In this document: one piece after another, positions 1 through 55,115 of the stretch
Layout of the letters: every line of letters begins with the position of its first letter
Numbering within the stretch: the stretch's first letter is position 1
Assembly (NCBI GenBank): GCA_017506865.1
Contig: JAFCMP010000528.1
Location: 248,001-312,000, forward strand
DNA: 64,000 bases
Reading direction: 5' to 3'
DNA from: Tribonema minus
Lineage: Eukaryota > Sar > Xanthophyceae > Tribonematales > Tribonemataceae
Notes under the pieces: generated by a model
What the model was told of the DNA's origin: nothing
Database searches by the model: none
The model's input: the letters and a program-made list of their open reading frames with translations, nothing else
Made by a program: the position numbers and the translations under genes

Positions 1-178
1 TGTACCTCGGTAGGATTGCTTGATGAAAATGTGGTCACCGTGGCGCGTACATGGTTTGCTACACCTGCATAAGCACAGCATGAGGTTATGTCCGCGTTAC
101 GTATGGACTTGTATTTATAAAGGCCCAAGGGAGGCCGGGTTGCCTATGCAATCGAAAAGCTTGCGTCAACGCAGCAGC
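1..178. other. 3' flank of the retrotransposon
   Basis: This stretch lies downstream (on the minus strand) of the retrotransposon stop codon and probably holds its 3' UTR. I see no ORF, no clear poly(A) tract and no tandem repeat. The true 3' end of the element may lie outside the window. Confidence 0.35.
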
Positions 179-4240: not shown

Positions 4241-4574
4241 GTCCGCCCATCCCACGGCCGTCCCGTGGGGGGGGCTGCTGTCCTGCAGCCTTAGGCTGTT
4301 AGACTGAGTGCGGCTGCCGGCGCTGCCAGGCGGTGCCGCAGCAGCTGCCGTTCGGCGCCGGCGTTGCGCGCCGGTTGCCCGCGTTACTGCCTTTTGAAAG
4401 GTTCAATCCTGCACGTCGGTCGTTTCACAATGCCTTATGGGCACCATTTTGAGTTACCTGACATACGTCCAAAAACACGATTGGGTCGTTTGATGATGGG
4501 CACCTATTAAGTATGTGCCGTATTTTCTTGCTGTTTTCTGTTTGCAGACATCATGGACCAGGTCGGCAAAGCAC

Positions 4575-26960: not shown

Positions 26961-27159
26961 GTTCCTGCTGTTCAGTTTGCGCTGCTGAGCATCTGTGCTC
27001 TGCCTGTTGCTCCAGGTGGTGGATTTTGCGTTTGACATGCGGTCCGTGAAGGGCAGCCGCGCTTTTCTGCGCTCATGCGATTTCGTGCTATGAGCTCTAG
27101 CTGCTGTGTTTGCTCGATCTATGATGCTGTGCATGACCCTGCGCCTGCAACACTGCTCA

Positions 27160-27640
27160 GTGGATTTGCAAATGCTCAAGAAATGGATTTGAGGCATTTG
27201 GGCGTCAGGAAGATGCTTGACGGAACAGGCACAGCCCAAATTTTTTTTGCAACGCTGCTTGAACGCATTTCAATGGCATCGAAAATGCACATCAAAGATG
27301 CTGGATGCATCTGGAAATGCTCGGCTTGCAGTTGAAATGCTGTCCCAGATGCATCACATTCTGCTCCGAAGCATTTACAGTTGCTCCCCAAATGCATTTG
27401 AAGAGGATTGCCAAATTTCTGCTGCAGGCGCCAAATGCTGCTGAGTTGGCAGCCAATGCATCTGTGAATTGCCCTTTGGCTCTTTGGAAATGCATTTGAG
27501 GAAATGCATTTGGGAAGTGAGGAAATTCATCTGAGGATGCTCCAGTTAGCATTTGCAGAAATATGAGCTACAATTTTTCCAACAGCATTTCTGAGGCACC
27601 ACACTCACTTTCCAAAGTCATTTGGCCCTGCATTTGCAAA
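27160..27640. repeat. Tract rich in AAATGC / GCATTT words
   Basis: AAATGC, its reverse complement GCATTT and the palindromic AAATGCATTTG recur dozens of times at irregular spacing in about 480 bp, far more often than in flanking DNA. No fixed period is obvious. Confidence 0.65.
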
Positions 27641-28917
27641 TTCAAATTCCTCTCATTCAAATTCCGGCTGGTGTTGCAAGTGCAACCAGCATTCGTAGAG
27701 GCCTTGAGACTGCCACTGCATCACCAATTAGTTCATGAGCCCCACAGAGCGAGTGCTGCAGCCACCACAATTGCATCATCACTGACCATCAGAAATGAAT
27801 CGGATGTAGTTACTGCGCGCACAGTAAAGCAGCACCAACAAAAATCAACGGCGTCAAGTGGCACCGGTAATAGCACGCATGCAGCAGCGAAGATGTCCGC
27901 CTCGAATGCCAGCAGCAAGAGTGCATCTGCGCCACAGCCTGCTCGATTCCTGACCTCCATGCTTGCGCAGGTGGCCAACATGCTTGCGATGGTGGCAGCA
28001 CATCACGTCGAACATTGCAGAAAACCTGACAGCGAATCACGCCCAACGTTCTGGCAGCAGCAGCGAACCTGCACTAGCGCCAATGTACAAATGAAACAGA
28101 CTCCCAGCTTACCTCCTGCCAGCTTGGGAGAGGCAGTATTTCAGCTTGGGTGGGGGGTCTTGTGGAATGGACAGGGGGAGTGAAATGGCAGTTGGTGTGC
28201 TGCTGCTGCAGCAGCACACGAGAGCTCGTCCAGCGAGCTTTAATTGTGCTTGTAGATGCTTTGTAGCGACGAGATAGATGGGGGCATTCTGGATGATCAA
28301 GCTCTGCAGCTCTTTGATGCGTTGCCTGGAGGTGGGACCACGGACACAGACACCGATTCAGTAACACAGCAAACACAGCTGCTGCTACTGCTGTGCTGCT
28401 GCTGCCGCTCACGTAACTGGTGCAACTTCTGAGTCTCATCACGCTGGAGATGCGCTAGTAGCTGCTGGTAATGCATCAGCTTCACAGCAGCAGCAGCAGC
28501 AGCGGCAGCAGCTCAGTGCGCATCAGCTGATGCTGACTTGCTGACAGGAAGCAACAAGAGCTGCTGCAGCCCGTGGTCGTGAGACATGGAATGCACTTTG
28601 TGCTCAAGCACCAGCGTCACCAGATTCTATTGCAACAGCAGCAGCAGCAGCGTGATGGCGCCAGACCTAGCACCGGTGAGGCTGCTGCAGGGGCAGTGTC
28701 CAATAGCATTCAGTGGGTGTCTCAGAAGCTGGGTGTACCACGTAAGCGCATCACGATCCGAGGGTTGTGTGCGAAGTGTGCTTACTAGTAGCCTGGGTCC
28801 AGAGGTGTTTGTCCGTGAGCCCGCAGCGCTGTCTTCGCATGCTATGTCGGCTGGCATATTGATGCTAGAAACAGCTGCTGTTCAGTTGTCACGTAGCGTT
28901 GTGCACGATGCGGCAGC
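27641..28917. other. Trinucleotide-rich DNA, no supported gene
   Basis: Interrupted CAG/CTG runs near 28200-28215, 28380-28405, 28483-28512 and 28630-28650. Open frames over them (for example Gln-rich around 28600) are explained by the repeats. A Ser/Ala/Thr-rich open frame at 27690-28180 has no recognised domain. Confidence 0.35.
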
Positions 28918-29365
28918 ATGGAAGTGCTAGACGCGCAATATCAGCAGCTGAAGCACAGGCTACGTGACGAGCCCGTGGCAATAGTGCCACCGATGAAAGG
29001 CAATGGTTCCGCTCAGCTGCAGCGCAGCACGGAGCCTCACCTGCTGGTGGCATGCCGCTGCCTGTGACATTCATACGTGTCATAGCGCCGCAACGGTGCA
29101 GCTGCAGCCAGCCACGCAGCCCCCGTCATCTGCCGTCGATGATGCCGACGAGACGCGGCGTAGGCAGTTTCGGGAATCAAAGCAACGGGCAGCAGAGCGC
29201 AAGCGAAAGCAGCCGCCTGCTCCGCTCTCGGAAGCTGAGCTGCCTGCGGTGCTGGTGAAGCGTGAGAAAGATCGCAAGCGAAAGGCAATCCAGCGAGCAG
29301 CAAAACGGCAGGCCTCTGACTCAGCTCATGCCGCTGATGATGCCGCTGATGATGCCACAGTGTAG
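28918..29365 (+). CDS. Small basic, charged-helix protein, two putative exons
   Basis: An ATG at 28918 opens MEVLDAQYQQLKHRLRDEP and runs to about 29046. A 55-bp intron (GTGGCA...GTGCAG) would join it in phase to 29102-29365, which encodes DETRRRQFRESKQRAAERKR, a short Pro-rich break, SEAELPAVLVKREKDRKRKA and an acidic Ala/Asp tail, then a stop. Total about 130 aa. The Arg/Lys-dense helices suggest nucleic-acid binding, like the basic region of bZIP-type or transposon accessory proteins, but there is no leucine heptad I can defend. The intron is unusually short and could instead mark a frameshift. Confidence 0.4.
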
Positions 29366-31541
29366 TTTTCTCAATTGTCATAATGAGACTTCCCATGTCC
29401 TTGCATTTCTTGTGGCTTCCATATTTGTGGCACTGCGGCACCACTATGTGTTGCCTGACATGGCATTGGGCAGGTTGTCATTGATGGTTTGAATGCCGTG
29501 AAGATGTCTTGATTTGTGTGGCTCAAGGCAGGGGTAGAACGGGTGCGCACATCAGGCTGTTTTGATTATGGTCATCTCATGGTGTCATCAGTGACTTTGC
29601 ATTGCGTATGAGCGGTAATATGCGCTTTAGATCATTCTTATATCACAGCGCACTGGAATCTGTGCTTGGCGCCTGCTTCATGCTGCTTCAAGTTCAGGTT
29701 TGCACCGTGTGGCTTCTGCCAGCCACACTGTTACCAACGCGCACCCCTAACTCTCTCACTGCCGATCATGAGAGCCAGGGATGCAAGCAAGTATGTGCTG
29801 CTGTACGTACAGCCCTTGACATGCCAAAGTTTGCCATGATTGATGTCACGGCATCATTTCTGCATGCATGACTTCGCAGCTACGGCTGCTGCGCTGCAGA
29901 GCCCAGTGGCAGCGTATGTGTGCTTTGAGAGCACACCATCTTTGTACAAACATCAGACAGACATAAAAGAGAAAAACCATGGAGCAGCACCGCTTACAGC
30001 ACGGCTTGGCACGCACTTGGACGCATCGCAATTCTAGTCAAAAATTTCCCCTTTTCTCTTCTTTTTCTCCCCTTTTTTTCTTATTTTTTTCCTCAGCCCC
30101 ACAGAGCCAAAAATTTGCCCAGCTTTGTGGGCCGCTGTGTGGCTTGTTTTGTGTGGCAACAGCCGTAACCCTGAGGTTGATCCGTAAAGTTGCAGTTGTG
30201 AAACTGCCAACAGTTTCTTGTCTTGTTTTTCTTGATGCTTGCCGGCCTACTCTGAGGCAGCAGCAGGGCAATACACCTATCTGGCACCTGGACGCAGTTG
30301 TTGGTGGGAGTTCTGTTGTTTGTTTCTTTGTCAACCCATCCTTGGTGACTCTGCTTCTTCCTGGTAAGCAAGAGTACATCAGTGCTTCTGGTGCTGCTGC
30401 TGCAGCCACGTGCTGCTCCTCCTCTTGTGCTCTCCTCTGTGTGTTGCTGCCTGCTGCTTTGCGCGCAGCTATTGCTGTGCTGCTGCTGCTGATAATGCTT
30501 GCTGCTGTTGCTGCTGGCTGCTACATATGCAGGACAGGAATTTCTTTAGCATATACTGTGGTAGTTGTGCGCTATCAGGCAGCCAAAATTGGCAGACAGA
30601 AGCAGAAGAGCTCACCCAGCACCAGAGAGGGTGTTCACACACTCTGCTGCAGTTGGAGCACTGCAGTATATATGCCGGACTCCTCAAGTCCAGAGGTCCG
30701 GCATAGGACACGGGGAGCGGTGTTCGGGGCCGCCCGAGAACCAGGCCCTCACGAGAACCCATGCCAGCATTATGCGCCTTGAGCTACTCATCTCAGTTTT
30801 CGGCTGCTCATCTCCTTCATACATTGCTCACAACTGCACCACTACACACTCACTTGCACAACCTACTTGCTCACAGGCACCAGTAGCAAGCGGCAGAAGA
30901 TATCTTGTCCCGCAGCAAAGATGCTTGATGTGATGATATAATACACGTATTGGTCGCAGCAAATTGCCAAGCGCTTGACCACTAACAGCCTGTCTCCTTT
31001 GTGAAAGTGGGCACTCATTGACCCCTGGCGAATGCGTCTCTCCCAACCACCTCCCATGTGTTTGCATGCACCTTCCGCCTCTTGCCGTGCCATTCCCCAG
31101 CGCCCAAGCATGTAGTGCTGGCGGTTATGTCTGATTCCAACACTGTGGCACTATGATGTATGTGCCCCAAAGCTCTCACGTTTGTCCGATGGCCAATGTG
31201 CATACGTGCCAAAACACTCATGCGCATGTGCTGGTGGGCACATGTGTAGTCCTCAAAATGCTGATGATGTGTGCGTATTGCACGCCTGGCACGTACAGCT
31301 TCAGTGCATCTGCGTTTGTACCACTGATATACATTCGTTGTGCCAGCGCCAATCAACGTCTGCCAGCATCCAACTACCTGCAGCTTAAATTTGATATACA
31401 TACCTCAATTATCATCGTATGCCTCGCGTTTACGTCCGCACATGTGTTTCTAGGACCCGTCCCCCCACGCCTGATGTCTTGGGGCAAGCTCAGAGCTACG
31501 ACAATACGGTCTATCTCTGAGATCTACTGCTCTGGCTTGTG
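29366..31541. other. No supported gene
   Basis: Pyrimidine-rich stretch at 30045-30095 (TTTTCTC-type runs) and CTG-rich stretch at 30390-30520. The long plus-strand open frame at 29979-30782 is Leu/Ala/Cys-rich because of those repeats. Nothing else recognisable. Confidence 0.35.
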
Positions 31542-38459: not shown

Positions 38460-40467
38460 TTAGTAGTCGCCGTTCTGCTCCGCCTCCTCTGCACTTTCAC
38501 CTGCATTTTCGGCCTCAAAGCGCCGAGCTTCAAACTCTGCATCGGCTGCGTCCTGTGCAGCCTGCTGACGCTCTACTACAGCGTCACCATCATAGGACAT
38601 ATCGCCGGCGCGAATACGCTCCTTTCGCGTGTAGGCGTCCTCTCCCTCCTCTACTGGAGTGAGGATTGCGGTTTCAGTGTCGTAGTCATACACGTACGTG
38701 AAGTCGTGAGCCCTGCACGCTCGCCAGAGCGTGCGCCTGGACCTCTTCAGCTGCGCCTGAATCTCGCTGTACGCTGCCGCATTGCCCGCCAGCTCCCCCT
38801 TGAACGCCGCCATGATCCCACGCTTCCGCTGCACCTCCGGCTCCAGCTTCTTGATCTCTTCGACGAGGCGAAGATGCTCAGCTTGGCATGCCTCCAGCTT
38901 GCGCTGCTGCTCGTCAACTTCCTCCTCCGTGCGCTGCAGCGCAATGTTCTGCAACCCAGCAGCCAGCTGCGCCTGAGTGAAACCCATCTCATGCGACACA
39001 TCCTCAATGGAGAGCACGGCGCCAGCAGGAGCCTCAGGCTGGTTGACAACCGCCTCCGCCGCCTCGATCATGAGCAGCTGCTGATGCGCCTTTGCCGCCT
39101 CCGCCGCCTCCGCTGCCGCGATCATGAGCAGCTGCTGTTGCGCCTGCTCCTCACGCTGCATGGCGGCCATCAGCTTTGGGCACGCTGCAACGCCGCTGAG
39201 CAAACGCACCGATGCTTGAAGAGTGTTGGTGACAGTGGGCCACGGCACGAAGACGTCGGTGGTGGTGACGACGTACGGAAAAGGTGAAACAACGTTAAAC
39301 TCATCCACCCATGACCCTGTACTCGCCGGTGCAGGGCACTTGCCCTTGTTTTCGAGGTACACGTCGGCGTCCTCGATGACGGAACGGTGGTAGGGTCACT
39401 TTGGCAGCTCAAGGCTGGTCAAGTACTTCTTGATGTTGTTGCTGTTGGCGCGTGTCTTGGTCTCGATGTACAGGATGTAAAACGGTACTCCAAACGGGTT
39501 GTGCTCCGGCACGACAGCGGCGTCGATGGTGTCCCCAATCAGAAAAGCTGAATCGCGCAGACCAGAGCTGACTGCACCGACGTCGTTGAGGGGCGAGTCC
39601 ATACTGTAAGGGGATATGAGCGACAGCGGGGGTTCGCCTTTGGCCCGCGCGCCGATACATCTCCTCGTGCTCTTCCCTCCGCCGGAGGTGCAGCGGGAAC
39701 TTGATGAGCAGGACATAGCCGTTTCAGTGCCCCTGCAACAAGTGTGCACAAAAAGGATACACGCGGAATCAATGAGCACAAACACAAAAGCAGCACACTT
39801 CGCCCAACACAACAGCATTAGCTACTTTACTTACTTGACTCTTAAATGGACCCACTCGTGCAGATCGGACTACTATGTGTGCACAATAAGGATACACGCG
39901 GGACCCGGTGTGAAACGAGCACAAACACAAAAGCAGCACACAGCACACCTTCGCCCAACACAACAGCAACAACTATTTTACTGACCTTGGCAGCCCCTGA
40001 TGCGCGATGGCGATCCATGCCGGCAGAGGGTTGTACCTGGCTGCTAGCACGGGCTGCGGCCGATGGCGATGGTGCTCCTTGTGCAGGAGGGTTAGCCACG
40101 GCGTCAAACTGCATTGGTGTCAGCACCCCCGCAGCCGTGAAGATGATGGCGGGGGCGTCGGGCAAGAGCTGCGAAACTGCTGTAGGACCTAATCGAGACG
40201 AGCAGCGATGGCTCGCTGCTTCTCTAGCCTCACGAAGATGAACGGGGCATCAGCCTCTGCGTCGAACATCCACACAGCATCCTTCGTGTTCTCCACCGTG
40301 CAAGCCGCAGTGGTGATGCGTGTGTACACCTCCTGGGTGGGATAGTCGCTGCTGCTGCGATCCTTGTTGAGGGCTTGGATCCAGTAGGCTGTTGCCTGCC
40401 CGCGGGACGCCGCCATGGCTGTTGTTGTGGGCGTTCTCTGCTGCTGGTTTACCCGTCGTGACCCCAT
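38460..40467 (-). pseudogene. Decayed coiled-coil protein gene, two exons
   Basis: Exon 1 (40467 to about 39985) starts MGSRRVNQQQ and encodes AYWIQALNKDRSSSDYPTQE and VWMFDAEADAPFIFVRLEKQ. It slips frame near 40185 into LGPTAVSQLLPDAPAIIFTA and reaches an AAG|GTCAGT donor. Exon 2 (39737-38460) begins in a frame encoding NGYVLLIKFPLHLRRREEHE, slips near 39640 to SAFLIGDTIDAAVVPEHNPF and YILYIETKTRANSNNIKKYL, meets an in-frame TGA at 39396-39398, and stays open for a further 300 codons to 38460. The last part is a long charged coiled coil (QRTEEEVDEQQRKLEACQAE and following) with a repeated QQQLLMI..AEA block, then an acidic tail. At least two frameshifts and one stop make this a pseudogene. 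Function unknown; possibly a transposon or virus-like accessory protein. Confidence 0.55.
39743..39984. repeat. Tandem duplication filling the intron of the decayed gene
   Basis: GTGTGCACAA-AAGGATACACGCGG, GAGCACAAACACAAAAGCAG and CTTCGCCCAACACAACAGCA occur twice, about 134 bp apart. Each copy carries its own donor-like site on the minus strand (GTAAGT near 39833, GTCAGT near 39981), so the intron appears to have duplicated with its splice signals. Confidence 0.75.
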
Positions 40468-40477
40468 CTCATGCGTT

Positions 40478-40670
40478 CAGATACATACATACACAATACA
40501 TACATAATACATACATACGGATCTATATTTTACTTCAAGAAATATATATCTTACGTGAACAAGAGCTTATGTGTATTACTTGCATCTGTGTTCTATAGCT
40601 AGCATACCTAGACCTATGCTCATTGCATATGTATGTATTATGTATGTAGTATGTATGTATGTATGCATTA
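40478..40670. repeat. ATAC / GTAT microsatellites in inverted orientation
   Basis: ATACATAC-type repeats at about 40482-40520 are followed at about 40628-40665 by GTATGTAT-type repeats, so the two can pair into a hairpin with a loop of about 110 bp. Confidence 0.8.
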
Positions 40671-40725
40671 TGCATGTACTCATGAGTACATATTCTCGCA
40701 TTAAAAAGTCAGCCACACACATGCA

Positions 40726-40912
40726 ACGGTTGTTGTGATACACACCTGGAGTTGTGCTCCTGAGGCTCATAACAACACAAGTGTTAAAAAGGGTCAGGGT
40801 AAGGGTTAGGGTTACTCAACATGTTGTTGACCCCGTAGGTTGTTGTGACACACACATGAAGTTGTGCTCCCAAAGCTCATAATAATAAAAAGTTTGTATT
40901 AAAAAGGGCCGC
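40726..40912. repeat. Direct repeat flanking a telomere-like tract
   Basis: GTTGTTGTGA-ACACAC, AGTTGTGCTCC, GCTCATAA and TTAAAAAGGG occur at 40726-40792 and again at 40838-40908. Between them at 40791-40814 is GGGTCAGGGTAAGGGTTAGG continuing as GTTA, a degenerate interstitial telomeric repeat. Confidence 0.75.
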
Positions 40913-40984
40913 GAGGAAGGCCGGCTGTGTGTGTGGGAACCGCGGAGAATCTGTGGGCTGCTCTGTTTAAACAGAGCCATGTCC

Positions 40985-41360
40985 GAGTAGCGCCAATACC
41001 GGGCGCTGTCACGGTGCAGCCAAGCATGTGTGCACCACGCACACTCTGACACTCTCTGCGAGCTCCTGCAGTACGCTAGCGACCTGCTCACCGCCGCAAT
41101 TATCTGTTTCTTGTTGTGCGGCTTTGCGCTTCATCTGTGCCCCCCTACCCCCTGTGCGCAGCGCTGAGGCATCGCCAGGTCCTCGACGAATCGGCATGCC
41201 CGAGTCCCCAATCGTCCGTACGACTCCTGCATGAAGGGGATAAACACCCATGATGAGCTCAGCGCGCCATCGTGGTGATCAATTGTCTCCTTCTCCCTCA
41301 CCTCCGCTGTGTGCCCATCCGTGGTGGCCGCTTTGGCCTTGCCCGCGAGGTATTATATAT
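40985..41360 (-). pseudogene. 3' fragment of a relative of the REL-type retrotransposon
   Basis: The minus strand encodes SSWVFIPFMQESYGRLGTRA, closely matching SSWAFVPFVQESYGRLGKQT near the C-terminus of the full-length element at 0.2-4.2 kb. A frame slip follows and then GGAQMKRKAAQQE, EQVASVLQELAESVRVCV. Only the last 120 or so residues are represented, so the copy is 5'-truncated, as is common for target-primed insertions. Confidence 0.7.
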
Positions 41361-42990
41361 GGAAACGTACTAGCAGTGCGTAAGGCTCTCAGTTATCTAG
41401 CTGTAGGCTGTCAGTAGTCAAAACGACGGTTGCTGGGCCACAAGTAGCCCACAAAAGACCGATATACGGGCAGGGTGCCACATTTAGGTGTTCGCATGTC
41501 ATTTGCATCAATATTTGCTCATCATCCTTGGTGTCTAGTGCAATAAAAGCCAACAAGCTCCCAAGAGTTGCCAGAACGCAAGCTCAGCATGATATTTATG
41601 TAGGTGAAGTCACGTTAAACTTGCCCAAAACTCACTCATAGAAGACATCTTCTATGTGCCACACATGTTAAGAACCAGGGACAAGAGTCACCATGCGCTT
41701 CTTCTGTGGTCATTGCCCACAGGAGGCCCTAGCGGTTTTTTTAATGACCACTTTTTTTTTGCGTGGGCAGCCCATGATGTTTTTTGCCACTGGCGTGGTC
41801 GACCATCCTGGGTTCTCTGTCTAACCCAGCTAGACTGCCTCATATGAAACTATAAGGTAAGGAGGAAACCCCTGAACTCTGAGTGCCGCCAAAGCAGTTT
41901 GCAAATGATCATGCTCACTGGTGTTGTGATTTACAAGCTTTCGCGCTTGTACATGAGAGTCAAAGGATTGGTAGCGTGGTCATCACTCTCTCTGTGCTGT
42001 ACTGGCGAATGATGAAAAGTGGTGAATTCTGAGTGCCTATGTGGATTGCACAACGATAGTCATGATTGAATGAAATAGAACAACGTATTACCATACGGCG
42101 GGAGACTCGCTCATTCGGTAGGGCCGCATGCCCATGCTGCAGTCACCTTGCGTGTGTGTCTGCAATATCATTCAAGTTGACGGTGTCGCACGAGGCGCAT
42201 CACTGGTGGTTCTAAAGCTTTGTTGGAGAGTGTTATCTAGACTTGCCTATGCAGCCCGTGAAGTGCTTTGACGGAGCTCGTGCTGCAGCACGTCGTTGCA
42301 TTAGAGAACAATCTGTGCAGCCTTCATGCGCCAGCATTGTTCTTCAAAGTTCAAGGTCAGGCTGCATGCATGCAATGCGCGGCGGTGCAGTGCAGTGCCG
42401 TGCGCACCTACGCCGATTGTGCAAATGAAGCGCGTGCAAAGGTCAATGACAAGTTGCTTGGTGATGTTTCCGTGTGTGATACCTCATGATGACACAGTAC
42501 TTCTTCCAAGTCAAGAAACAAGAGTTATAAAAAAGGTGGACTCAGCACAGTTGTCAACAGGTCTTTGACAGACCTGATGCACAGCACTTTTCATGTTCAT
42601 TGTGCCCCACGCAGGTGGCCAAGGAGGATCGCGTTCCACCGGGCGCTGAGAAGTCAACAGCTGCGTGGAGCCTGCGGTTGAGAACCGCAGGGCCTGCGTA
42701 CTACTAGCAGCATAGCCGCCACATACAAGCATGTGCACACATACCCTGCGCCAAAGTTCACATTTTCCACGTTGCTATCTTTGCTCATGCCTGTGTGATT
42801 ATGCTGCAATTCTGCTGCCAAAACAAGGCAAATGCCTGCAAGCTACTTGTCCAAGAGACGTTCTGCGCACAAACAAAATGGAATTTTTGCAAGCGTGAGC
42901 AAAATCGCACATGCTATGTGCAAAATGCGCTATTTTGCGCCTGCATAGTATGTGCTGGTTTTTGTGCAAGAACTGACCACCCCGTTTTCC
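41361..42990. other. No supported gene
   Basis: AT-richer, short ORFs only. A smooth plus-strand peptide at about 41656-41847 (RDKSHHALLLWSLPTGGPSG) has no partner exons. No repeat of note. Confidence 0.35.
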
Positions 42991-42999
42991 TGACGTGCC

Positions 43000-43740
43000 A
43001 CCTGTGCAGTACGTAGCGAGCGAGGACGCATGAGTAGCAAGCGGCGATCTGGCATCTGTGTGCTAACAATACTGACACCTAGCAACAGCGAGCGAAGAGA
43101 GTGAGAGAAACACTTCCACATGACCGCAACCGTAGTTTGATTCACGTCGGGCACAAGAGTGTTTCTGAGTAGCCGGACGCCCACCACATGCGCCCCTGAC
43201 ACTGTACCCCCGAGGCCTTCAGCCACGAGCTTGACTTTGTCCAAGAAGCTTCTGAGCCCTCCACGCATCAGCATGTGCCTGAATGTGCTCTGCAACCTTT
43301 CATACATGTCACATTCGTCAGCTTCGGCAGCGACAAGCATCTGCTGAAGCGCCAGTTTGCGAGTTACACTTGTGTCGCGCCTCTCGCATCGCGCCCACCT
43401 CGTCAAAGTCGTCGGTGACAACGGCGCAGAACACCCCGAGCTCACAAAGCTCTACGAGTATCTTCTCATGATGCCCCAGGCCGTCACCTCGATCGTCATC
43501 TTCCGGATCCTTCAGCAGTCGCGGCAGCGCGTCGCTCAATCTTTGCGCCTCCACTGCAGGTTGTCCTCATAAAAAGTCAGACGCGCCTCCTCTTTGTCCA
43601 GCGTGGCCATGCCCTCCTTCAGCGCCTCCTTCCGCCGCTCCGGGGTCTCCTCCACATCGCGCTTGCCCTCGAGCTCATCGCGAAGTTTCGCCTTGCTGGA
43701 GCGCAGCTCGGTCTCTTTCTGGCGGCGCCGTCAGAGCTCT
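43000..43740 (-). pseudogene. Decayed coiled-coil gene fragment
   Basis: Consecutive minus-strand pieces in different frames: RRRQKETELRSSKAKLRDEL and RRKEALKEGMATLDKEEARL; then EAQRLSDALPRLLKDPEDDD and KILVELCELGVFCAVVTDDF; then LALQQMLVAAEADECDMYER and RSFLDKVKLVAEGLGGTVSG. At least two frame changes lack splice signals. The first part is a charged coiled coil like that at 38.5 kb, but I see no shared sequence. Family unknown. Confidence 0.45.
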
Positions 43741-44583: not shown

Positions 44584-46411
44584 TAATACGGCACCATTTG
44601 GTGACATGCTGTTCAAATGCCATGTTCCAGTCAATGAATGAACGACATGATGCTGTTTATACGCCATCCCGCTCCAAGCAGCCACACGAGCCCACTCACT
44701 TAGAAGCCAGCCGCCGTCGCAAGCTGACGCGCTTTTCCAGACAACTGGTACGTCGTTTCTCCATCATCATTCGGGACCGTCTTGTATGGACCCTTGCCTC
44801 CCCCCTTCGTTTGTCCGCGACTCGCTGCGAAGGTGCTCCTGTTGTTGCACATGCGCTTGCGTTACAAATGCTAACGTCGCATTGAGCTCCGCAGCACGTG
44901 CCAGGCTCTGGTGCAGCTGCTTTTTCGAACGCCGAAATTGCTTTGGCAAGCTCCTTAAAGAATGGCTGCATGCAGCACACCTTTTTCGGATTGACATTCA
45001 CTGCAGCTTGTACTTGCACCACTAAAAACCTTTTTTCCACATAACTACATGTATATAGCCGAGGCTGGTGCAAGCTGGTCAGGCCAAGGGTACGTGGACC
45101 TACACATAATGATGAAAGTACAAGCAGGGAGGCCTTAAACTTCAACTTGAGGTTAATAAACTTCAATCAGATGTACTTGAGGCACAAACTTCATCTGCAG
45201 TCATGAGCCTAGTACTTGTCTCACGTACAAGCACGAAAGCTTGCAAATACAACACCTAGTGACAATTACCCCTTTCCGAACTGATTTGGCGACACTCGTA
45301 GTCTAAGGCGCACCCCCCTTACCTTATAATTTCTCATGAGAGCAGTTCAAACATAAAAGTATAGCAGTATGGCACTGCAAAAAAACATAAACAAAGGTCA
45401 CAAGGAACGCAAAGTGGACAAGCTGATGATGAACTTTGATGATGAACTCTGCTGAACATTTGGTACACAAGAGCGAAGTCATACATTGTGATGCGCGACC
45501 ACGACCAACGCTCTCACTTGCCTAATTGGCCAGGACCGAGCTCTTGGCAAACCGCACTCGATGTACCCTTGCGCAGCATGCGCCATGCCACAGTGCTACC
45601 CAGGATCCTTGCAGCGCCTGCATGGGCAACACCGATTGCCGCTGCCACATTGAAGTGCAACATGATTGGGCGCAAAGGCATCAGCGCAACTGTCGCAAGC
45701 AAGAGAGTTCCTCATAGTGTGAGCACGCGAGTGTGCCTGAAGCTCTAGATTTTACACTGCCAGTACTATCGGGGGTTGCATCCGCGCAGATGCCCAACAC
45801 TGAAGAAACGCATTCCTCAGTGTGTTTGCAAACCACAGGAGCGGCTCATGCCCGCGTCCCTGAGCGCATACATGCGCATGGGCTTGAAAGTATGCCGCTG
45901 AGCACTGTTCATGTACTTCTCAGGCGCCGAGAAGCTATGGCGCCCGTCAAAGCCTCGCAGCGTGTTGCTCGCGATGGAGCATATCGCCGACCCCCTGCAG
46001 AACTTAGCACGTTAAAAGGGTGTCTATACCCAGGCCTGACAGAGTCTCACTGTCAATCCGTTGTCCCGCCATGTAGTCGCTAGTGTCCTGTTATAATGTA
46101 TCTGTTGATATTGTTGTTGTAGCACTGCCTCTCTCCGCCGCTCATATAGAGGCAATTCCATCACGGTTTGTGCGCGCTCAAGAGCACGAGACGTGGAAAG
46201 GTGCGACAAATTCAAGGCACTGCCGCTTCGCCGGCAGCTTCATTTGCATCATTTGCATCACTGTTGCTCATTCATTTGTTCACGTGTCAGACGGCCCAAA
46301 TGCTTCATGATTTATTATCATGATTTATTTGAATAAAAGAAATATATATACATACATTTCAATTAGCACATTGCCGGGAAATCACAATCACTCCCTCATT
46401 CTCGCGGCAAT
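44584..46411. other. Mostly non-coding upstream of the recombinase gene
   Basis: A minus-strand open stretch near 45010-44700 encodes FFKELAKAISAFEKAAAPEP in one frame and ARAAELNATLAFVTQAHVQQ in another; neither is supported by splice sites. A 50-bp segment at 45072-45120 resembles 13930-13985. An AT-rich AAATATATATAC lies about 70 bp before the ATG at 46412 and could be a TATA-type promoter element. Confidence 0.3.
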
Positions 46412-48141
46412 ATGGCGACCGACGGCCTGACATCTATCTGCAACAACACCAGCAGCGGTGACGCGATGAGGAAGGCAGCTGCCATCGCTGAAGCCGCCAT
46501 CAACAAGAGCACCAGGTTCAACACTGCTTCGGTCGCAGATTTGGTCACGTGGGTTGCTGACTTCAAGTATGCCAGCCAAGATGACCGGCACATTAAGATG
46601 GTGCAAGAGTTCTACGACTTCACCATGACACGTCTGTCAGTCACTTCACTAGGGGACGTCAAACCCAGTCCAGAGTTTGGCGCCCTGGGGGAGGACGTCA
46701 AGGACAAGTGGACCAGAGAGCTCGCTGAGGTACATGCGCTCATCGCGTTTGCGCTGTGGACAGTGCTCATCCCCTACTATGTCAAGGAAAGGACCAAGCT
46801 CGGCACAAGAGGCAAGCACTGGCGTCCGCTCGAGGCCGCTTCTCCCATCAAGCGCGACCGGCTAAACGTGTACAACCTCGTCAAGACGCTGATGGCATTC
46901 AACTTTGTGATTGGCGCACCTGCTGTCCCGCTGCTGAACTACTACAGCTGGGACTTTGCCCAGGACGACGAGAGGCTGTGTTTCCTGCTAGATAGGGACT
47001 TTTTGATCGAGGGTGAGAATGCGGAGACGGGGGGCACATCCACGCACACAATCCGGAACGTCGCGAGCACCTTTGTGCGTGTGATGTGGGTCGCCCTCAT
47101 TGTGTTGGTCAGGGAGCCGCATCACCTGAGCGCCATAAGGCCGCTTATGGCAAAGGAGTGGTGTGTGCTGGTGCAAGGGCATGGCATTCCCGAGGACCTG
47201 CTGACGGGTCGCAGAGAAGATCCGCCAATCAACTATGCTGAGCTCAAGCGCAGCAAGGGCGAAATTGTGCCCTGCAAGGAACGGACATTCTTGACCGCCA
47301 TCACCGGCGACGCATTCTACGCCGACATATTCCTACCCACCGGTTTCTTCGCATTGCGTGCACAGAAGTTGGCAGAAGGCTGCAAGGAGCCTAACGTCGA
47401 CCAGCACTTCCTGTGTCGGCAGATTTTCAACAGCTCGAGCGACACCACCGTGGCGTCGTTCAATAACAATTTGGCGGCTGTGTTCAGCGCTCTAAAGCGC
47501 TGCGGTGCCGACAGGTACACGCCAGATGCTATGGAAATTGCAGCCATGCAAGCGTACGGCATCGATACGCACGCACTGGAGGCGTCAGGGCTGGCGCTTA
47601 CGTACTCTGTGCACAAGTACATCAACGCATTCAACGATGATTTCCTCACTGCCAGGCGTACCATACGTGCCAACGTAACCGTCAGCAGGGCGCTCGACAG
47701 GGGTGGACTCAAGTCTGAGCAGTGTGCAGGCAGGCTGCCAGAAATGGAAAACGACGGCCTTCGCGACATGATGAAAGCTCTGAGAAAGCAGGTCTGGAAA
47801 TCAGTTTGGGTATCGGTCATTCAGCCTTGGCTGCGGCAGATGTCCCTACCTGCGGACGCACATGGTTTCTTCCTGGCCACAGAGTCTGGTGGCCTTAAAG
47901 ATTTCGCGGACTCCAAAGGATTCACGCGCGCAGACGCCGAGCGCGTACAGCTGCTGCTGATGCTTCACCGGTCAGTATTTACGTCTCAAGTGTGGCGGGA
48001 TTCTGTGGTGGAGGAGTTTGAGCTGGTTCAACACGACGGCGATAAGTTCTACAAGTTCAGTCTCTCACGTGTGTTCAAGACGGCAGCGGCGAAGACGGGC
48101 GATGGCATTCCGCAGCTGACGAGCTGGAAGCTCTCCGAGAC

Positions 48142-48344
48142 GTCTCGATCCAACGTCGCGTCACAGGAGCGCCATTGGAGTTGATGAACATGCGCTGACT
48201 CCTCTTGGAGCCGGTAGCAAGCAGGGGACGACACAGGACGAGCACCGTGTGCACCAGCATGGACTCAGCTACCGGTTCCAAGAGGAGTCAGCGCATGTTC
48301 ATCAACTCCAATGGCGCTCCTGTGACGCACCGTTGGATCGAGAC
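48142..48344. repeat. Inverted duplication, 77-bp arms, 49-bp spacer
   Basis: 48142-48218 is the reverse complement of 48268-48344 with three mismatches. Read on the minus strand, the left arm and spacer give MLVHTVLVLCRPLLATGSKR followed by SQRMFINSNGAPVT, which is the expected core sequence. So the spacer and left arm are an inverted copy of the proper coding segment, placed head to head with the true one. Confidence 0.9.
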
Positions 48345-48818
48345 AAGAACAGCAGAGCTGGGTAAGCACTGGCTTGCAGTGCCTCGCCTGGGTCCCCACT
48401 CGTTGTGGACAATGTGGCAGCTGGCTGGTCGGCAAAGGCTTGGTAAAAGAGCAAGATGTCGACAACCTGGCTGCCTATGTTCAGGTCGGTCGTTGCACTA
48501 TGCTGGAGAACTACGTCACTCCGAGCTTCAGTGCTCCGGCACAGCGCGTGGGCCAAGCTTTGCGCGACGGCGGTCTGAATGGTGCAGCTCCCAACAGGCC
48601 TCAGAGCCTGTGGCATCGTCGGACTCAGCAGGCTCAAGTAATGCTGGGCAGGCAAAGCGTAAGGCCCCGTACGGAATACAAATTAGCACGATCCGCAAGC
48701 AGTACAAGGCACAAGCACAGGCAGTGGTCGAGGCTCACGGAGGCGATCACAAGGCGGCATTTGCGTATCTTGTCGCGAAGCGCAAGGCGGAAGCCCTGAC
48801 TGAAGATGAGCAGTGGTT

Positions 48819-48827
48819 TTCGAAAAA
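48819..48827. repeat. Target-site duplication, left copy (9 bp)
   Basis: TTCGAAAAA immediately precedes the left end of the palindromic element. The identical 9-mer follows the right end at 55107-55115. Nine base pairs is typical for Mutator-like elements. Confidence 0.85.
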
Positions 48828-48862
48828 GCACCATAACACATACCGGTCGCCCAGCTTTAAGC

Positions 48863-48895
48863 CCCCTACCCCCGACCCCCGACCGAAACCCCAGG
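48863..48895 (-). other. G-rich terminal motif, left arm (possible G-quadruplex)
   Basis: About 35 bp inside the end, the minus strand carries four runs of four or five G separated by 2-8 bases (GGGG, GGGGG, GGGGG, GGGGG). The mirror copy lies at 55039-55071 on the plus strand. Confidence 0.6.
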
Positions 48896-48999
48896 GTGCT
48901 TGAAACGCCAAAAAAATGTTGTTCGCGTGTTGGTGCCCCGTTGCGGCACGCCAGGCATCGATTGGCAGTGGCAGTGGCGTGCGCATGATATGAGTTCCA

Positions 49000-49449
49000 T
49001 TGCTGAGCTTGTTTTATGAAAAGCAGAGCTATGGCGCTCCAGTAGACAGTAGTTTGCGCTCGCACGGCTACTTGTTTGGCTTTGCTTGTGCGTTATCACG
49101 ATGCATCGCGCGGCTTGCTGCCAATTACCTAATTGATACACAGCTGGCATTCATCCCCACTGCTTTTGGTTCTGATACAGCTGCATTTCCACGCCAATGC
49201 GATGAGCAAGCTGTCAGATTGGCCAGGCGCCAACATACATATGCCACAAAAGAAGACTCCGATCTGATAGCTGGTGATCCGCAAAACAGCTCCTACAACT
49301 GCATCAAGACTAGATCCAGACTAGCACAAGCATTACTTGTAACAGAACCATTTTTAGAGTCATACAAGCAGTGGCAGCAGCATGTGTTGCACTCAGCAGC
49401 AGGAAGGCAGAAAGCAGGAGAGGAGACGAAAGGCAGTATCTGTTGGTAG
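49000..49449 (+). CDS. Second ORF of the Mutator-like element, left copy
   Basis: An open frame of about 149 codons starting 172 bp inside the element end and running inward, toward the 3' end of the transposase gene. It encodes GYLFGFACALSRCIARLAAN, IDTQLAFIPTAFGSDTAAFP and ESYKQWQQHVLHSAAGRQKA. There is no ATG in the open part, so it may be an exon, use a non-ATG start, or not be translated. No family recognised. Two genes converging from opposite ends recalls MuDR, whose mudrB lies opposite mudrA; that is an analogy of layout only. Confidence 0.35.
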   Translation: MLSLFYEKQSYGAPVDSSLRSHGYLFGFACALSRCIARLAANYLIDTQLAFIPTAFGSDTAAFPRQCDEQAVRLARRQHTYATKEDSDLIAGDPQNSSYNCIKTRSRLAQALLVTEPFLESYKQWQQHVLHSAAGRQKAGEETKGSICW

Positions 49450-49518
49450 AAAACAGAAATTGAAATTTGCGGGAGTAGCAGCAATGACAGTGTGAACGTA
49501 CAGCAGCGCTGGATAAAG

Positions 49519-51971
49519 TCAAACTGGAGGTGGGTTTGCAGGGCCACTTTTCTGCCGCGTTTTTCGCTTGGGATAACATGCCTTACTCTGTCGCTGGAAG
49601 TTACCCAGCGACCGTTCCTTTGTGGGTTGGCGCCCACACTCTGGCATGCGCACCAGTGGCTTGTTGCAAACAAGCGCATCCGCGGCGTCGGGCGCACACC
49701 GCTTTCGGTGACTAAACAAAGGCTTGCAAGTCCCGTCCGTCTCTTGCCTGTTCCATGTCATCTTGCTAGGAACTGATTCGACTGCAAAGTGCGGCATTGA
49801 TGCCTCGCAAAGATCTGCCAGTTCACGCATGGCCGGCATAACCTTGTCTAACTGGGCTGGCGCAACCAACTGTGCATTGTTTGCAAACTGGCGAAAAACT
49901 GCTGCGCAGCGCCTGACCTCTTTTACCCCCTCAGGCAGCGCGCCTGCCTCCCCAATTGCACTGCTGATGGACTTGGCGGTCTGTGTCGCCTCCATCAGTG
50001 CCTTCACCGCAGCCTCCCCCCCAAACCTGTTGAGCGGCTCCTCAACGTCCTGCAGCATTGCTAGGGGTGGGAGTCGCCGCACTTCAATGCGCTCATTGAT
50101 GTCAGCAGGCGCCGGAGGATCGTAGGTGGCGAGGTTGCACCCGGTCTTGAAAAATGTATCGTGTAGCTGTGCTGCCAGAAGATGGGCGCATGTGTGGAAC
50201 AGCTGCGAGTCCAGGCATGTGCAGAACCAGGTGTAGATGTTGAGGGTGCATGAAGCAGCTGTTGGAGCCGCTGGGCAGAGCCGCCTGGGAGAAGGCAGAC
50301 GGGGAAAGCCATATGTCAGCATGATATTGCTGACAGTATACTAAGTATGTGAGAAGCTCTCTGCAGCGGAAGGTTGATGTTCACAGCTCAACAGTCGATG
50401 CTCATCATGTTTGTGCACAAATTTAAACAACAAACGTTGTCAAGTGTATGTGGTGACATGACACCCCATAAGGGGAGGCGGGGGTGCCGCGTTTACTACT
50501 GGTGTGCAATGAAAATACAGCTGCATCATAAAATCACAATACGCAATATGCTACTTCTAGAAGTAATATGTCAGGAATTACGTCCCATCACACACCAAAA
50601 AATAATCCAAGTACTAATTACTGTGGTGACAAAGCTCCTTTTTCTTCAAGCTGAACGCAAAAAAAATCAATAGTACTTTGCCATGACCCAACAGTGTGGC
50701 AATCGCAGTGTTGAAAAATTAGTTTCCCCAGCCATTAGCAGCGCAACGGCAACTTAAGAACTGAGTACCAATGGCAAGATAAAATTGGCCTACGACCGTC
50801 ATGGCCATCGCTGCACGACTACAACCAGCATGCGATTTATGAGGGCCACTGTGACAGTTGCCCTGCTCAAGCGGAAATGGTGACGTCCAAATAGCTGCCC
50901 TAGCAAGGTATGCTAAATACTATTGCGGCCAGTGAGTGAGTGTAAGACCAAAGTATTTCTCTTGCCTGCATTGAAGTACACCGCTGCTCAAGTCGACCTC
51001 CTCCAAGTGGTCCACGAGCGCCTCAGCAGTGCGCAGCCGCATAGCGTGCGTGAATCCAATGCTGGTGGCGGCGGCCTCGAGGTGCTTGCATACATTGCGG
51101 CATGCCTGAGGGCACGAGCAGAAAAGCTCTCCCACAAGTCCAGAGTAGCTGGTGGAACCGGGGTGCTTGACGCTCGTGCATGTGAACGCCCCCATGGCCT
51201 TGTCTCCAGTTGGAGTGACGTAGCCGCGTTCGAGTCTGAACTGGACTTGGTGCTGGTGGCGCTGCAGTGCTGACATAGCAGCTGCGTAGAGGCACATAAT
51301 CAGGAAAATGATAATGTTAGTGTACTAGCCTACATGCCTCAACATGAGAGCGTTTCATACTGTGCTATGCATCGCACGCCAAAACGCGTGGAGCACTGTC
51401 ATTGAGTTGCATCCTACTTCAACAAGAAGCGGTAGCGTCACCCTCACAGCCAATTCAATATGAAGGTTTGGGGCGCTGCGGCAGTGCTGTCATTTTCAAG
51501 CATTAAATAGCAGTTGCACGATGGCTTGATCATGGCAGAATGAACAAAAAAATTGTGGTGATGTTAGCGCTGACCGCGGCTGCACTTAACAGGCATTCAT
51601 GCCATGCAAAAAACCTATGCGTAAAGTATACTTGTCACGCTAGAGTCCCATTCCAGCGCTCCAGGTGGTTGTTGGTGTTGACGTCCATAGCAGACACTGC
51701 TGTTCGCCCATAGAATGCCCAATGCTCAGCACAGCACGCCCAGTTGTCGTTGTAGTATTGAACCACCGCTGCATGGTGTTGTAGTATTGAACCACCGCTG
51801 CATGCTTCTTTTCTGTCCAACTAGATGTGATGATTGCAGCACGCACTTTCTCATGTGTATGTTATGCAGGTGGGCACACCAACCACCGCTGCATGCTTCT
51901 TTTCTGTCCAACTAGATGTGATGATTGCAGCACGCACTTTCTCATGTGTATGTCATGCAGGTGGGCACACT
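49519..51971 (-). pseudogene. MULE transposase 3' half, left arm copy, internally deleted
   Basis: Mirror image of the right-arm gene. It keeps the two SWIM finger exons (50966-51281 and 49519-50284) and the segment encoding MDVNTNNHLERWNGTL near 51690-51640. It lacks the 187 bp that in the right arm encode the end of the DDE-domain exon and its donor site, and it carries a few amino-acid differences (for example LAMLQDVEEP versus LAMPLDVEEP). It cannot make the same protein as the right copy. Confidence 0.75.
51750..51971. repeat. Direct repeats at the palindrome centre
   Basis: A block starting ACCACCGCTGCATGCTTC repeats at 51791 and 51882 (91-bp period, nearly identical, each ending with a TATGCAG/CATGCAG|GTGGGCACAC splice-acceptor-like site). 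Just left, a 29-bp unit GTTGTAGTATTGAACCACCG occurs twice (about 51750 and 51778). These mark the junction where the two arms were joined. Confidence 0.85.
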
Positions 51972-54415
51972 ATGCAGCGGTGGTTCAATACTACAACGAC
52001 AACTGGGCGTGCTGTGCTGAGCATTGGGCATTCTATGGGCGAACAGCAGTGTCTGCTATGGACGTCAACACCAACAACCACCTGGAGCGCTGGAATGGGA
52101 CTCTCAAGTACGTCTTCTTGATGAGGAAGAAGGCTCGGCAGTTGGCGCAGCTGCTCTCTCTGCTTGTCACCAAAGTCATGCCTCACTACATGCATGACCG
52201 TGAGAAAAAGCTGGCCGGCCTGGAATCATCAGGTGAGCAAAAGTACTTTAATTCATAGGCTTGACATGGCCCAAGCACTTGAAGACCTCGCCAGCGTGAC
52301 AAGTATACTTTACGCATAGGTTTTTTGCATGGCATGAATGCCTGTTAAGTGCAGCCGCGGTCAGCGCTAACATCACCACAATTTTTTTGTTCATTCTGCC
52401 ATGATCAAGCCATCGTGCAACTGCTATTTAATGCTTGAAAATGACAGCACTGCCGCAGCGCCCCAAACCTTCATATTGAATTGGCTGTGAGGGTGACGCT
52501 ACCGCTTCTTGTTGAAGTAGGATGCAACTCAATGACAGTGCTCCACGCGTTTTGGCGTGCGATGCATAGCACAGTATGAAACGCTCTCATGTTGAGGCAT
52601 GTAGGCTAGTACACTAACATTATCATTTTCCTGATTATGTGCCTCTACGCAGCTGCTATGTCAGCACTGCAGCGCCACCAGCACCAAGTCCAGTTCAGAC
52701 TCGAACGCGGCTACGTCACTCCAACTGGAGACAAGGCCATGGGGGCGTTCACATGCACGAGCGTCAAGCACCCCGGTTCCACCAGCTACTCTGGACTTGT
52801 GGGAGAGCTTTTCTGCTCGTGCCCTCAGGCATGCCGCAATGTATGCAAGCACCTCGAGGCCGCCGCCACCAGCATTGGATTCACGCACGCTATGCGGCTG
52901 CGCACTGCTGAGGCGCTCGTGGACCACTTGGAGGAGGTCGACTTGAGCAGCGGTGTGCTTCAATGCAGGCAAGAGAAATACTTTGGTCTTACACTCACTC
53001 ACTGGCCGCAATAGTATTTAGCATACCTTGCTAGGGCAGCTATTTGGACGTCACCATTTCCGCTTGAGCAGGGCAACTGTCACAGTGGCCCTCATAAATC
53101 GCATGCTGGTTGTAGTCGTGCAGCGATGGCCATGACGGTCGTAGGCCAATTTTATCTTGCCATTGGTACTCAGTTCTTAAGTTGCCGTTGCGCTGGTAAT
53201 GGCTGGGGAAACTAATTTTTCAACACTGCGATTGCCACACTGTTGGGTCATGGCAAAGTACTATTGATTTTTTTTGCGTTCAGCTTGAAGAAAAAGAAGC
53301 TTTGTCACCACAGTAATTAGTACTTGGATTATTTTTTGGTGTGTGATGGGACGTAATTCCTGACATATTACTTCTAGAAGTAGCATATTGCGTATTGTGA
53401 TTTTATGATGCAGCTGTATTTTCATTGCACACCAGTAGTAAACGCGGCACCCCCGCCTCCCCTTATGGGGTGTCATGTCACCACATACACTTGACAACGT
53501 TTGTTGTTTAAATTTGTGCACAAACATGATGAGCATCGACTGTTGAGTTGTGAACATCAACCTTCCGCTGCAGAGAGCTTCTCGCATACTTAGTATACTG
53601 TCAGCAATATCATGCTGACATATGGCTTTCCCCGTCTGCCTTCTCCCAGGCGGCTCTGCCCAGCGGCTCCAACAGCTGCTTCATGCACCCTCAACATCTA
53701 CACCTGGTTCTGCACATGCCTGGACTCGCAGCTGTTCCACACATGCGCCCATCTTCTGGCAGCACAGCTACACGATACATTTTTCAAGACCGGGTGCAAC
53801 CTCGCCACCTACGATCCTCCGGCGCCTGCTGACATCAATGAGCGCATTGAAGTGCGGCGACTCCCACCCCTAGCAATGCCGCTGGACGTTGAGGAGCCGC
53901 TCAACAGGTTTGGGGGGGAGGCTGCGGTGAAGGCACTGATGGAGGCGACACAGACCGCCAAGTCCATCAGCAGTGCAATTGGGGAGGCAGGCGTGCTGCC
54001 TGAGGGGGTAAAAGAGGTCAGGCGCTGCGCAGCAGTTTTTCGCCAGTTTGCAAACAATGCACAGTTGGTTGCGCCAGCCCAGTTAGACAAGGTTATGCCG
54101 GCCATGCGTGAACTGGCAGATCTTTGCGAGGCATCAATGCCGCACTTTGCAGTCGAATCAGTTCCTAGCAAGATGACATGGAACAGGCAAGAGACGGACG
54201 GGACTTGCAAGCCTTTGTTTAGTCACCGAAAGCGGTGTGCGCCCGACGCCGCGGATGCGCTTGTTTGCAACAAGCCACTGGTGCGCATGCCAGAGTGTGG
54301 GCGCCAACCCACAAAGGAACGGTCGCTGGGTAACTTCCAGCGACAGAGTAAGGCATGTTATCCCAAGCGAAAAACGCGGCAGAAAAGTGGCCCTGCAAAC
54401 CCACCTCCAGTTTGA
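51961..54415 (+). CDS. MULE transposase 3' half with two SWIM zinc fingers, right arm
   Basis: Three exons fit in phase: 51961-52232, 52653-52968 and 53650-54415. Exon 1 carries the end of the DDE domain: WACCAEHWAFYGRTAVSAMD then VNTNNHLERWNGTLK, the W...TNN-E-W-LK signature of Mutator/FAR1-type transposases. Exon 2 holds a SWIM finger, FCSCPQACRNVCKHLEAAA (CxC...CxH). Exon 3 opens with a second SWIM-type finger, FCTCLDSQLFHTCAHLLAAQ, then a helical stretch and a basic tail with GRQPTKERSLGNFQ. The intron after exon 2 needs a GC donor (CAG|GCAAGA) to keep phase. Upstream catalytic Asp residues are missing because the palindrome centre lies immediately 5'. Tandem SWIM fingers in one transposase are unusual. 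It may be transcribed but cannot be a complete enzyme. Confidence 0.75.
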
Positions 54416-54484
54416 CTTTATCCAGCGCTGCTGTACGTTCACACTGTCATTGCTGCTACTCCCGCAAATTTCAATTTCTGTTTT

Positions 54485-54934
54485 CTACCAACAGATACTG
54501 CCTTTCGTCTCCTCTCCTGCTTTCTGCCTTCCTGCTGCTGAGTGCAACACATGCTGCTGCCACTGCTTGTATGACTCTAAAAATGGTTCTGTTACAAGTA
54601 ATGCTTGTGCTAGTCTGGATCTAGTCTTGATGCAGTTGTAGGAGCTGTTTTGCGGATCACCAGCTATCAGATCGGAGTCTTCTTTTGTGGCATATGTATG
54701 TTGGCGCCTGGCCAATCTGACAGCTTGCTCATCGCATTGGCGTGGAAATGCAGCTGTATCAGAACCAAAAGCAGTGGGGATGAATGCCAGCTGTGTATCA
54801 ATTAGGTAATTGGCAGCAAGCCGCGCGATGCATCGTGATAACGCACAAGCAAAGCCAAACAAGTAGCCGTGCGAGCGCAAACTACTGTCTACTGGAGCGC
54901 CATAGCTCTGCTTTTCATAAAACAAGCTCAGCAA
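54485..54934 (-). CDS. Second ORF of the Mutator-like element, right copy
   Basis: Identical in layout to the left-arm ORF at 49000-49449. It starts 172 bp inside the right end and runs inward, ending 70 bp from the transposase stop codon, so the two genes converge tail to tail. The protein is the same in both arms, with no difference visible to me. Function unknown. Confidence 0.4.
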   Translation of the reverse strand: MLSLFYEKQSYGAPVDSSLRSHGYLFGFACALSRCIARLAANYLIDTQLAFIPTAFGSDTAAFPRQCDEQAVRLARRQHTYATKEDSDLIAGDPQNSSYNCIKTRSRLAQALLVTEPFLESYKQWQQHVLHSAAGRQKAGEETKGSICW

Positions 54935-55038
54935 TGGAACTCATATCATGCGCACGCCACTGCCACTGCCAATCGATGCCTGGCGTGCCGCAACGGGGCA
55001 CCAACACGCGAACAACATTTTTTTGGCGTTTCAAGCAC

Positions 55039-55071
55039 CCTGGGGTTTCGGTCGGGGGTCGGGGGTAGGGG
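55039..55071 (+). other. G-rich terminal motif, right arm (possible G-quadruplex)
   Basis: GGGG, then GGGGG, GGGGG and GGGGG within about 33 bp, 35 bp from the right end; mirror of 48863-48895. Such runs near both ends could affect transposase binding or replication of the ends. Confidence 0.6.
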
Positions 55072-55106
55072 GCTTAAAGCTGGGCGACCGGTATGTGTTA
55101 TGGTGC

Positions 55107-55115
55107 TTCGAAAAA
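55107..55115. repeat. Target-site duplication, right copy (9 bp)
   Basis: TTCGAAAAA, identical to 48819-48827, directly after the right terminal inverted repeat. The sequence that follows continues the recombinase reading frame. Confidence 0.85.

Follow-up and report, generated by a model that had tools for sequence, protein, structure and literature searches.

We analyzed a window of 64,000 nucleotides (positions 248,001 to 312,000 of contig JAFCMP010000528.1, assembly GCA_017506865.1) and found that it harbors a palindromic transposable element of 6,279 bp, located at 48828-55106 of the window, in which the left end of a longer transposon is doubled head to head. We infer the host to be the xanthophyte stramenopile alga Tribonema minus. 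The genome was searched as 158,181,000 bases in 554 contigs, which are designated here by C numbers, C525 being the contig with the window and its palindrome. Full-length relatives of the element were recovered together with a second palindrome of the same family on contig C11. It is probable, in our assessment, that the C525 element is a non-autonomous, foldback-type derivative of a Mutator-like element (MULE) born by template-switching repair, and that the C11 palindrome formed separately by the same route.

Both termini of the C525 element carry GCACCATAACACATACCGGT in inverted orientation, and the element is flanked by an exact 9-bp target site duplication (TSD), TTCGAAAAA, at 48819-48827 and 55107-55115. 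Coordinates, ends and TSD are all as given in a preliminary description of this locus that was made from the sequence alone. That description also saw the arms as mirroring each other around one axis. The outer arms do pair without a gap over 2,814 bp (99.716% identity), but the symmetry has two axes, since 188 bp found only in the right arm, at 52105-52292 (minus strand), are missing from the left arm (2809-2996 of the full-length copy on C18, on which the coordinates of all parts, junctions and breakpoints are given). The second axis pairs 51642-51779 with 51967-52104 (138 bp, 99.275% identity). Besides this deletion the arms differ at 9 of 2,952 sites, and about 94% of the element is paired. 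Six inverted repeats of at least 60 nt were listed in the window; two of them make up the element, and the remaining four reach 99 nt at most (at 72%).

Searching the genome with the left 364 bp of the element returned at least 16 matches, a lower bound. Six cover nearly the full query at 96% identity or more, two each in C525 and C11 and one each in C18 and C74; the others are a match in C550 at 80% and nine shorter ones, each covering part of the query (about 37 to 110 bp). The preliminary description had looked to full-length relatives with a non-duplicated centre and to other palindromic copies with different 9-bp TSDs, and both were found. The copies at C18:115831-126402 (10,572 bp, no TSD) and C74:275622-286200 (10,579 bp, TSD TTACAGTTG) are full-length, 97.7% alike and bounded in each case by terminal inverted repeats (TIRs) of about 76 bp. 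The second palindrome, at C11:213933-221236, is 7,304 bp long with TSD TTATGGAAA, and its arms of 3,131 bp are 99.68% identical, differing at 5 of 3,126 sites. Both palindromes consist of the left ~3.13 kb of the full-length relatives, which holds the 3' part of the MULE transposase gene, doubled head to head around centres that differ. These relatives and the arm alignment support the earlier view that one end of a MULE was duplicated.

Other copies of the family are less complete. The one on C25 has no left terminus and carries an internal deletion that brings C18 positions 3934 and 8717 together, and the one on C255 is 99.8% identical to the right part of the C74 copy and its right flank over 11.3 kb and is probably the other haplotype of C74. 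Of the five loci that hold substantial stretches of close sequence (C18, C74 together with C255, C25, C525 and C11), two are thus palindromic, both of them left-left. Using the right 1.5 kb of the C18 copy as query, a search that sets a lower bound, no right-right palindromes were seen: there was one match each in C18, C255, C74 and C25 (94-100%) and C509 (71%), and a further 13 short matches, of at most 76 query bases, at TIRs. Among eight joined copy regions, inverted repeats of at least 200 bp lie inside a family copy in C11 only, and others lie in the flanks of C25, C550 and C18. The C25 repeats, at 168228-169086 and 179043-179605, are 99-100% identical over ~0.3-0.6 kb and flank the internally deleted copy. 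At C255:17850-19413 the copy ends at element position ~9050 beside a 46-bp inverted piece (9018-8973), which is either another fold-back-like junction or a misassembly. A 114-bp element composed of just two opposed family TIR ends, without a TSD, is found at C540:242456-242569.

The transposase gene of the full-length element lies on the minus strand and runs from about 8.6 kb toward the left end. A domain scan of seven open frames of the C18 copy matched frame 5048-5548 to the RNaseH-like domain of ZSWIM1-3 (PF21056, 8.5e-9, over the cut-off) and to MULE PF10551 (2.7e-5, under the cut-off), and frame 2090-2491 to SWIM PF04434 (E 0.0037; 17.2 bits, under the cut-off of 19.6); the remaining frames gave no domain match or weak matches only. 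A 599-amino-acid (aa) protein from a Trinity transcript (P0001, eukprot source), which carries PF10551 and PF21056, aligns to C18 in five blocks at 97-100% identity, and a transcribed close relative of this family therefore exists somewhere. Another transposase relative, P0002 (Tribonema minus JKP88DRAFT_255926), is encoded by C241 in four blocks at 95, 100, 99 and 90%. The family has the terminal inverted repeats of MULEs (~3 kb long in the two palindromes, ~76 bp in the full-length copies of C18 and C74) and their 9-bp TSD, exact in C525, C11 and C74 and absent from C18, and with the RNase-H-like transposase of the full-length form these features indicate, at the level of sequence, a Mutator-like family. 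A genome-wide search with PF10551 at E 0.001 returned no match, even to this family, and is uninformative on other MULE palindromes.

Three of the five P0001 blocks, covering residues 150-599, are present in the right arm. On the plus strand, and with element positions counted here on the palindrome itself, they are the exon for residues 150-241 (TNNHLERWNGTLK region) at 51959-52234 (element 3132-3407), the exon for residues 240-347, a SWIM-like region, at 52649-52972 (element 3822-4145), and the last exon, for residues 346-599, at 53648-54412 (element 4821-5585). The left arm has the same blocks minus about residues 199-239, with minus-strand copies of the SWIM-like exon at 50962-51285 (element 2135-2458) and of the last exon at 49522-50286 (element 695-1459). 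Each arm had been described as holding the 3' half of the transposase gene, and this stands. The two RNase-H-like blocks (P0001 residues 1-150) are absent from the arms, and the palindromes would therefore be non-autonomous. They have the long TIRs of foldback elements, which fill most of the element (94% of C525 and 86% of C11 paired). Internally repetitive TIRs, another foldback trait, were not seen: self-comparison of C11 shows no direct repeats, and that of C525 shows them in the centre only, as a tandem pair of a 91/92-bp unit.

The central junctions can be read base by base. From the left end of the C525 element, the plus-strand copy of 1-2808 (48828-51641; 97.7% identical to C18) is joined bluntly, across the 188-bp deletion, to 2997-3134 (51642-51779, plus), slips back with a 2-bp overlap to a 27-bp repeat of 3104-3130 (51778-51804, plus), and inverts bluntly at 51804/51805 to 3205-3129 (51805-51881, minus). 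A switch with a 1-bp overlap leads to 3116-3130 again (51881-51895, plus), and the same blunt inversion then leads to 3205 and onward to position 1 as the right arm (51896-55106, minus), which is free of the deletion. The first inverted piece and the second passage through 3116-3130 form the first unit of the tandem pair, and these final steps equal a tandem duplication of the 91/92-bp unit. The C11 path takes 1-3143 in plus orientation, passes through a 5-bp overlap (ACCTG) to 7359-8208 in plus orientation and through a 3-bp overlap (GAA) to 3587-3394 in minus orientation, and ends with 3132-1 in minus orientation; the last junction has no exact overlap, with three matching bases after one mismatch. 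Overlaps thus measure 2, 0 and 1 bp at the C525 junctions, and 5, 3 and 0 bp at those of C11 (the last 0-3 with one mismatch allowed), as template switching with or without microhomology would leave them. Each centre reuses pieces of the element in both orientations, and each holds parent pieces missing from the other.

The inner arm ends lie at 3130 and 3205 in C525 and at 3143 and 3132 in C11, three of the four being within 14 bp of each other, in an imperfect 8-bp hairpin of 21 bp at 3125-3145. Under a post hoc model of uniform, independent breaks, the odds of any breakpoint pair falling within 13 bp are 1.0% (2.1% if breaks are restricted to 1-6 kb), and those of both C11 ends falling within 13 bp of one C525 end are 1e-5 (4e-5 for 1-6 kb).

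The insertion site of the C525 element is represented elsewhere in the genome by C71, an uninterrupted paralogue (not an allele) that we used as the empty site. The joined C525 flanks align to it unbroken across the insertion point (376 of 486 columns identical, extending 49 bp past the point), with the TSD in single copy bearing substitutions, and one reading frame runs through the point in both. Thus, the element sits in the last ~17-20 codons of an apparent coding region, and its TSD looks like a true target duplication. The joined C11 flanks matched only C11 itself in the genome. It had been argued that the palindromic form must itself have transposed since the TSD brackets it. This is not proof, as repair inside an inserted full-length copy leaves the same TSD; moreover, the two palindromes have unlike centres, so there is no single palindromic form that recurs at a second site. 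At its right terminus the C525 element carries the left-type base 33 and the shorter C run, which leans mildly toward movement of the palindrome itself. At position 33 the right ends of C18, C74 and C255 have the other base, that of C25 has the left-type base, and that of C11 has a deletion; the left end of C18 has a longer C run. Right-TIR variants were also considered as a mark of in-place repair and rejected, since both variable places have an exception (the C25 right end and the C18 left end). The reading frame that the palindrome cuts belongs to a region covering 46367-48184 and 48199-48827 of the window (plus strand), and its C71 paralogue is 77% identical at the DNA level. The 605-aa open reading frame upstream, at 46367-48184, had no Pfam match at E 0.01, and its one PDB match, at E 0.98, is not meaningful. 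A 77-bp inverted repeat, 96% complementary, lies within the interrupted-frame region at 48142-48218 and 48268-48344.

Under our preferred reading, the left end of a ~10.6-kb element with TIRs of ~76 bp would have been copied inward twice. Copying may have stopped ~3.13 kb in, at the small hairpin, and several template switches would have joined both copies head to head, either during gap repair that was aborted or in a replicative event equivalent to it. As we infer it, this repair would yield a product with two left-type TIRs and no RNase-H-like transposase exon, movable only with transposase from elsewhere, and the C11 palindrome would have been made separately in the same manner. The separate origins were assessed over 2,934 columns in which all four arms of C525 and C11, as well as C18 and C74, have sequence. 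Fourteen sites set both C525 arms apart and 14 set both C11 arms apart, 14 are single-arm changes, one is homoplastic, and none of the 2,934 columns pairs one C525 arm with one C11 arm. As no site links single arms across loci, two separate inverted duplications would be likeliest, and their occurrence in sister lineages may be the simplest account of sites and tree. In the tree, built on the inner part with the first 660 bp left out, each arm pair is supported at 100. The C525 and C11 loci differ by about 1.2%, and the distance from the arms to the C18 and C74 copies is 1.8-2.5%; therefore neither of these two copies is the direct parent.

Several points weigh against this reading. At twelve sites the two palindromes agree with each other and differ from C18 and C74, and the tree joins both arm pairs at 100/99; such a sister relation would also be expected of one ancestral palindrome, and a separate origin would need sister parents. 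The C525 junctions are nearly devoid of microhomology, and the odds of a shared breakpoint were computed after the fact. Across the 10.6 kb there are 16 places with hairpins as stable as the one at the breakpoints, several of them stronger, and no break lies there. Since windows of such stability make up 3.8% of the element, the hairpin offers a lead and no proof, and as sole cause of the breakpoints it was rejected. One could suppose, extending the earlier view, that one ancestral palindrome transposed to both sites, its centre or centres being rebuilt later and its arms kept alike by within-copy gene conversion. The sister sequences with their 12 common sites, the left-left form of both elements and their nearly coincident inner ends would agree with this, as would the left-type base 33 at the C525 right terminus, which an element with two left ends predicts. 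Still, complete homogenisation of the arms would have to be invoked for all 28 locus-separating sites, none of them common to single arms, and new breaks at the same place would be needed in any case, given that the inner ends (3130/3205 versus 3143/3132) and the centre pieces differ. We hold a common ancestral palindrome to be a possible but unlikely origin.

It is also conceivable, and in our opinion doubtful, that a chromosome broke inside a full-length element and the sister chromatids fused, giving two left ends between the left flank and its inverted copy, and that transposase excised the left-left unit by its two TIRs and inserted it at its present site. Such an event would account for the left-type right terminus, for the TSD around the palindrome and for the inversion junction of C525 (3130 to 3205), which is asymmetric and nearly blunt. 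Alone, it leaves unexplained the pieces inserted in C11 (850 bp and 198 bp) and the repeated switches in C525, and no donor locus showing an inverted flank came to light, although none was specifically sought. Near-identical inverted arms are a known hazard in assembly, and the C255 contig does break within its copy beside a 46-bp inverted piece. An assembly or fold-back-read artefact is nevertheless highly improbable: the mirror symmetry does not extend beyond the element, the two flanks are different sequences that share one TSD and jointly match the uninterrupted paralogue, the arms differ at the 9 sites and by the 188-bp deletion, and a second palindrome with another TSD is present on another contig.

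Our literature search, of partial scope, turned up no publication devoted to these elements and none describing a Tribonema minus genome. Long TIRs with half the transposase gene were thought not to be standard. This is correct in part, yet Mu killer of maize and the extended TIRs of Galileo in Drosophila are close precedents, and the kind is therefore already known. Mu killer (Muk), the nearest parallel, is an internally deleted, partly duplicated MuDR in which both TIRs come from the mudrA end and mudrA copies are inverted (PMC3440606). Its TIRA end is duplicated 1.298 kb into mudrA, its centre resisted sequencing, and it silences MuDR in trans (PMC3440606, PMC2563033); it is described as one newly arisen locus (PMC3440606). 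The palindromes resemble Muk as MULE derivatives with both TIRs from one parental end and two inverted partial transposase copies. Unlike Muk, they duplicate the end with the 3' part of the transposase, have arms of ~3 kb, and comprise two elements with sequenced centres, for which silencing is only hypothetical. In Galileo, extended TIRs take in the end of the transposase open reading frame, by 69 bp in a nearly complete copy and by more than 500 bp in copy 147; a 9,021-bp copy is almost all TIR (4,246 and 4,680 bp), and three extended copies have identical TSDs (PMC4168063). The C525 and C11 elements likewise have TIRs extended into the transposase gene, an almost all-TIR structure and an intact TSD. 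However, Galileo belongs to the P superfamily, with a 7- or 8-bp TSD and TIRs of ~760 bp in the nearly complete copy (PMC4168063, PMC3573991), whereas ours is a MULE with a 9-bp TSD and a full-length form with TIRs of just ~76 bp.

The Mutator/Foldback elements Tm1 of root-knot nematodes and FARE of Arabidopsis have composite, internally redundant TIRs of variable length (PMC3169594). They share with our elements the MULE-type transposase, the 9-bp TSD and foldback-like TIRs. In contrast to the gradual TIR expansion that others have proposed for foldback elements (reported in PMC3169594), the long TIRs here look like the result of one duplication. Transposon gap filling with template switching at microhomology, and internal-deletion derivatives arising by interrupted gap repair, have been described (PMC8277862). 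The short or zero junction overlaps and the pieces from elsewhere in the element are as in such derivatives (PMC8277862); such repair ordinarily leaves products that retain each end once, unlike the palindromes, and the C25 copy is of this ordinary kind. The multi-step switching at the C525 and C11 junctions fits gap-repair or fork-stalling models. To the known kind the present elements add a host among the stramenopiles, arms of ~3 kb built from the 3' end of the transposase, two products whose centres can be read and which occur alongside full-length relatives, and a common breakpoint region. With short-TIR full-length forms and two palindromes in one genome, all junctions being readable, the one-step birth of foldback elements can be studied directly, and so can a possible breakpoint hotspot.

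Muk is described as producing a 2.4-kb hairpin RNA processed to small interfering RNAs (PMC2563033), and its silencing has been linked to two short antisense transcripts (PMC3440606). RNA across either palindrome is predicted to fold into a stem of about 3 kb over three transposase exons, and the genome contains Piwi-domain exons in C50 and RNase III exons in C379, C46 and C516. That the family is silenced by such hairpin RNA is a speculative proposal that we consider improbable. A wider version, to which we give similarly little credence, is that the hairpin at ~3.13 kb acts as a hotspot recurrently yielding left-left palindromes, whose Mu-killer-like hairpin RNA would feed an Argonaute pathway and keep copy number low. 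If so, the transposon would limit itself via a built-in tendency to fold back, and if hairpin RNA is made by these loci, they would provide a test case of transposon self-limitation in a stramenopile alga. The Piwi-domain exons of C50 form two opposite-facing sets (27107-30150, plus strand, and 40388-43706, minus strand), which are either a pair of inverted Argonaute-like genes or the halves of an inverted duplication. Elsewhere in the window, a 1,407-aa open frame at 179-4402 (minus strand) matches reverse transcriptase PF00078 (2.2e-7, over the cut-off) and is a retrotransposon.

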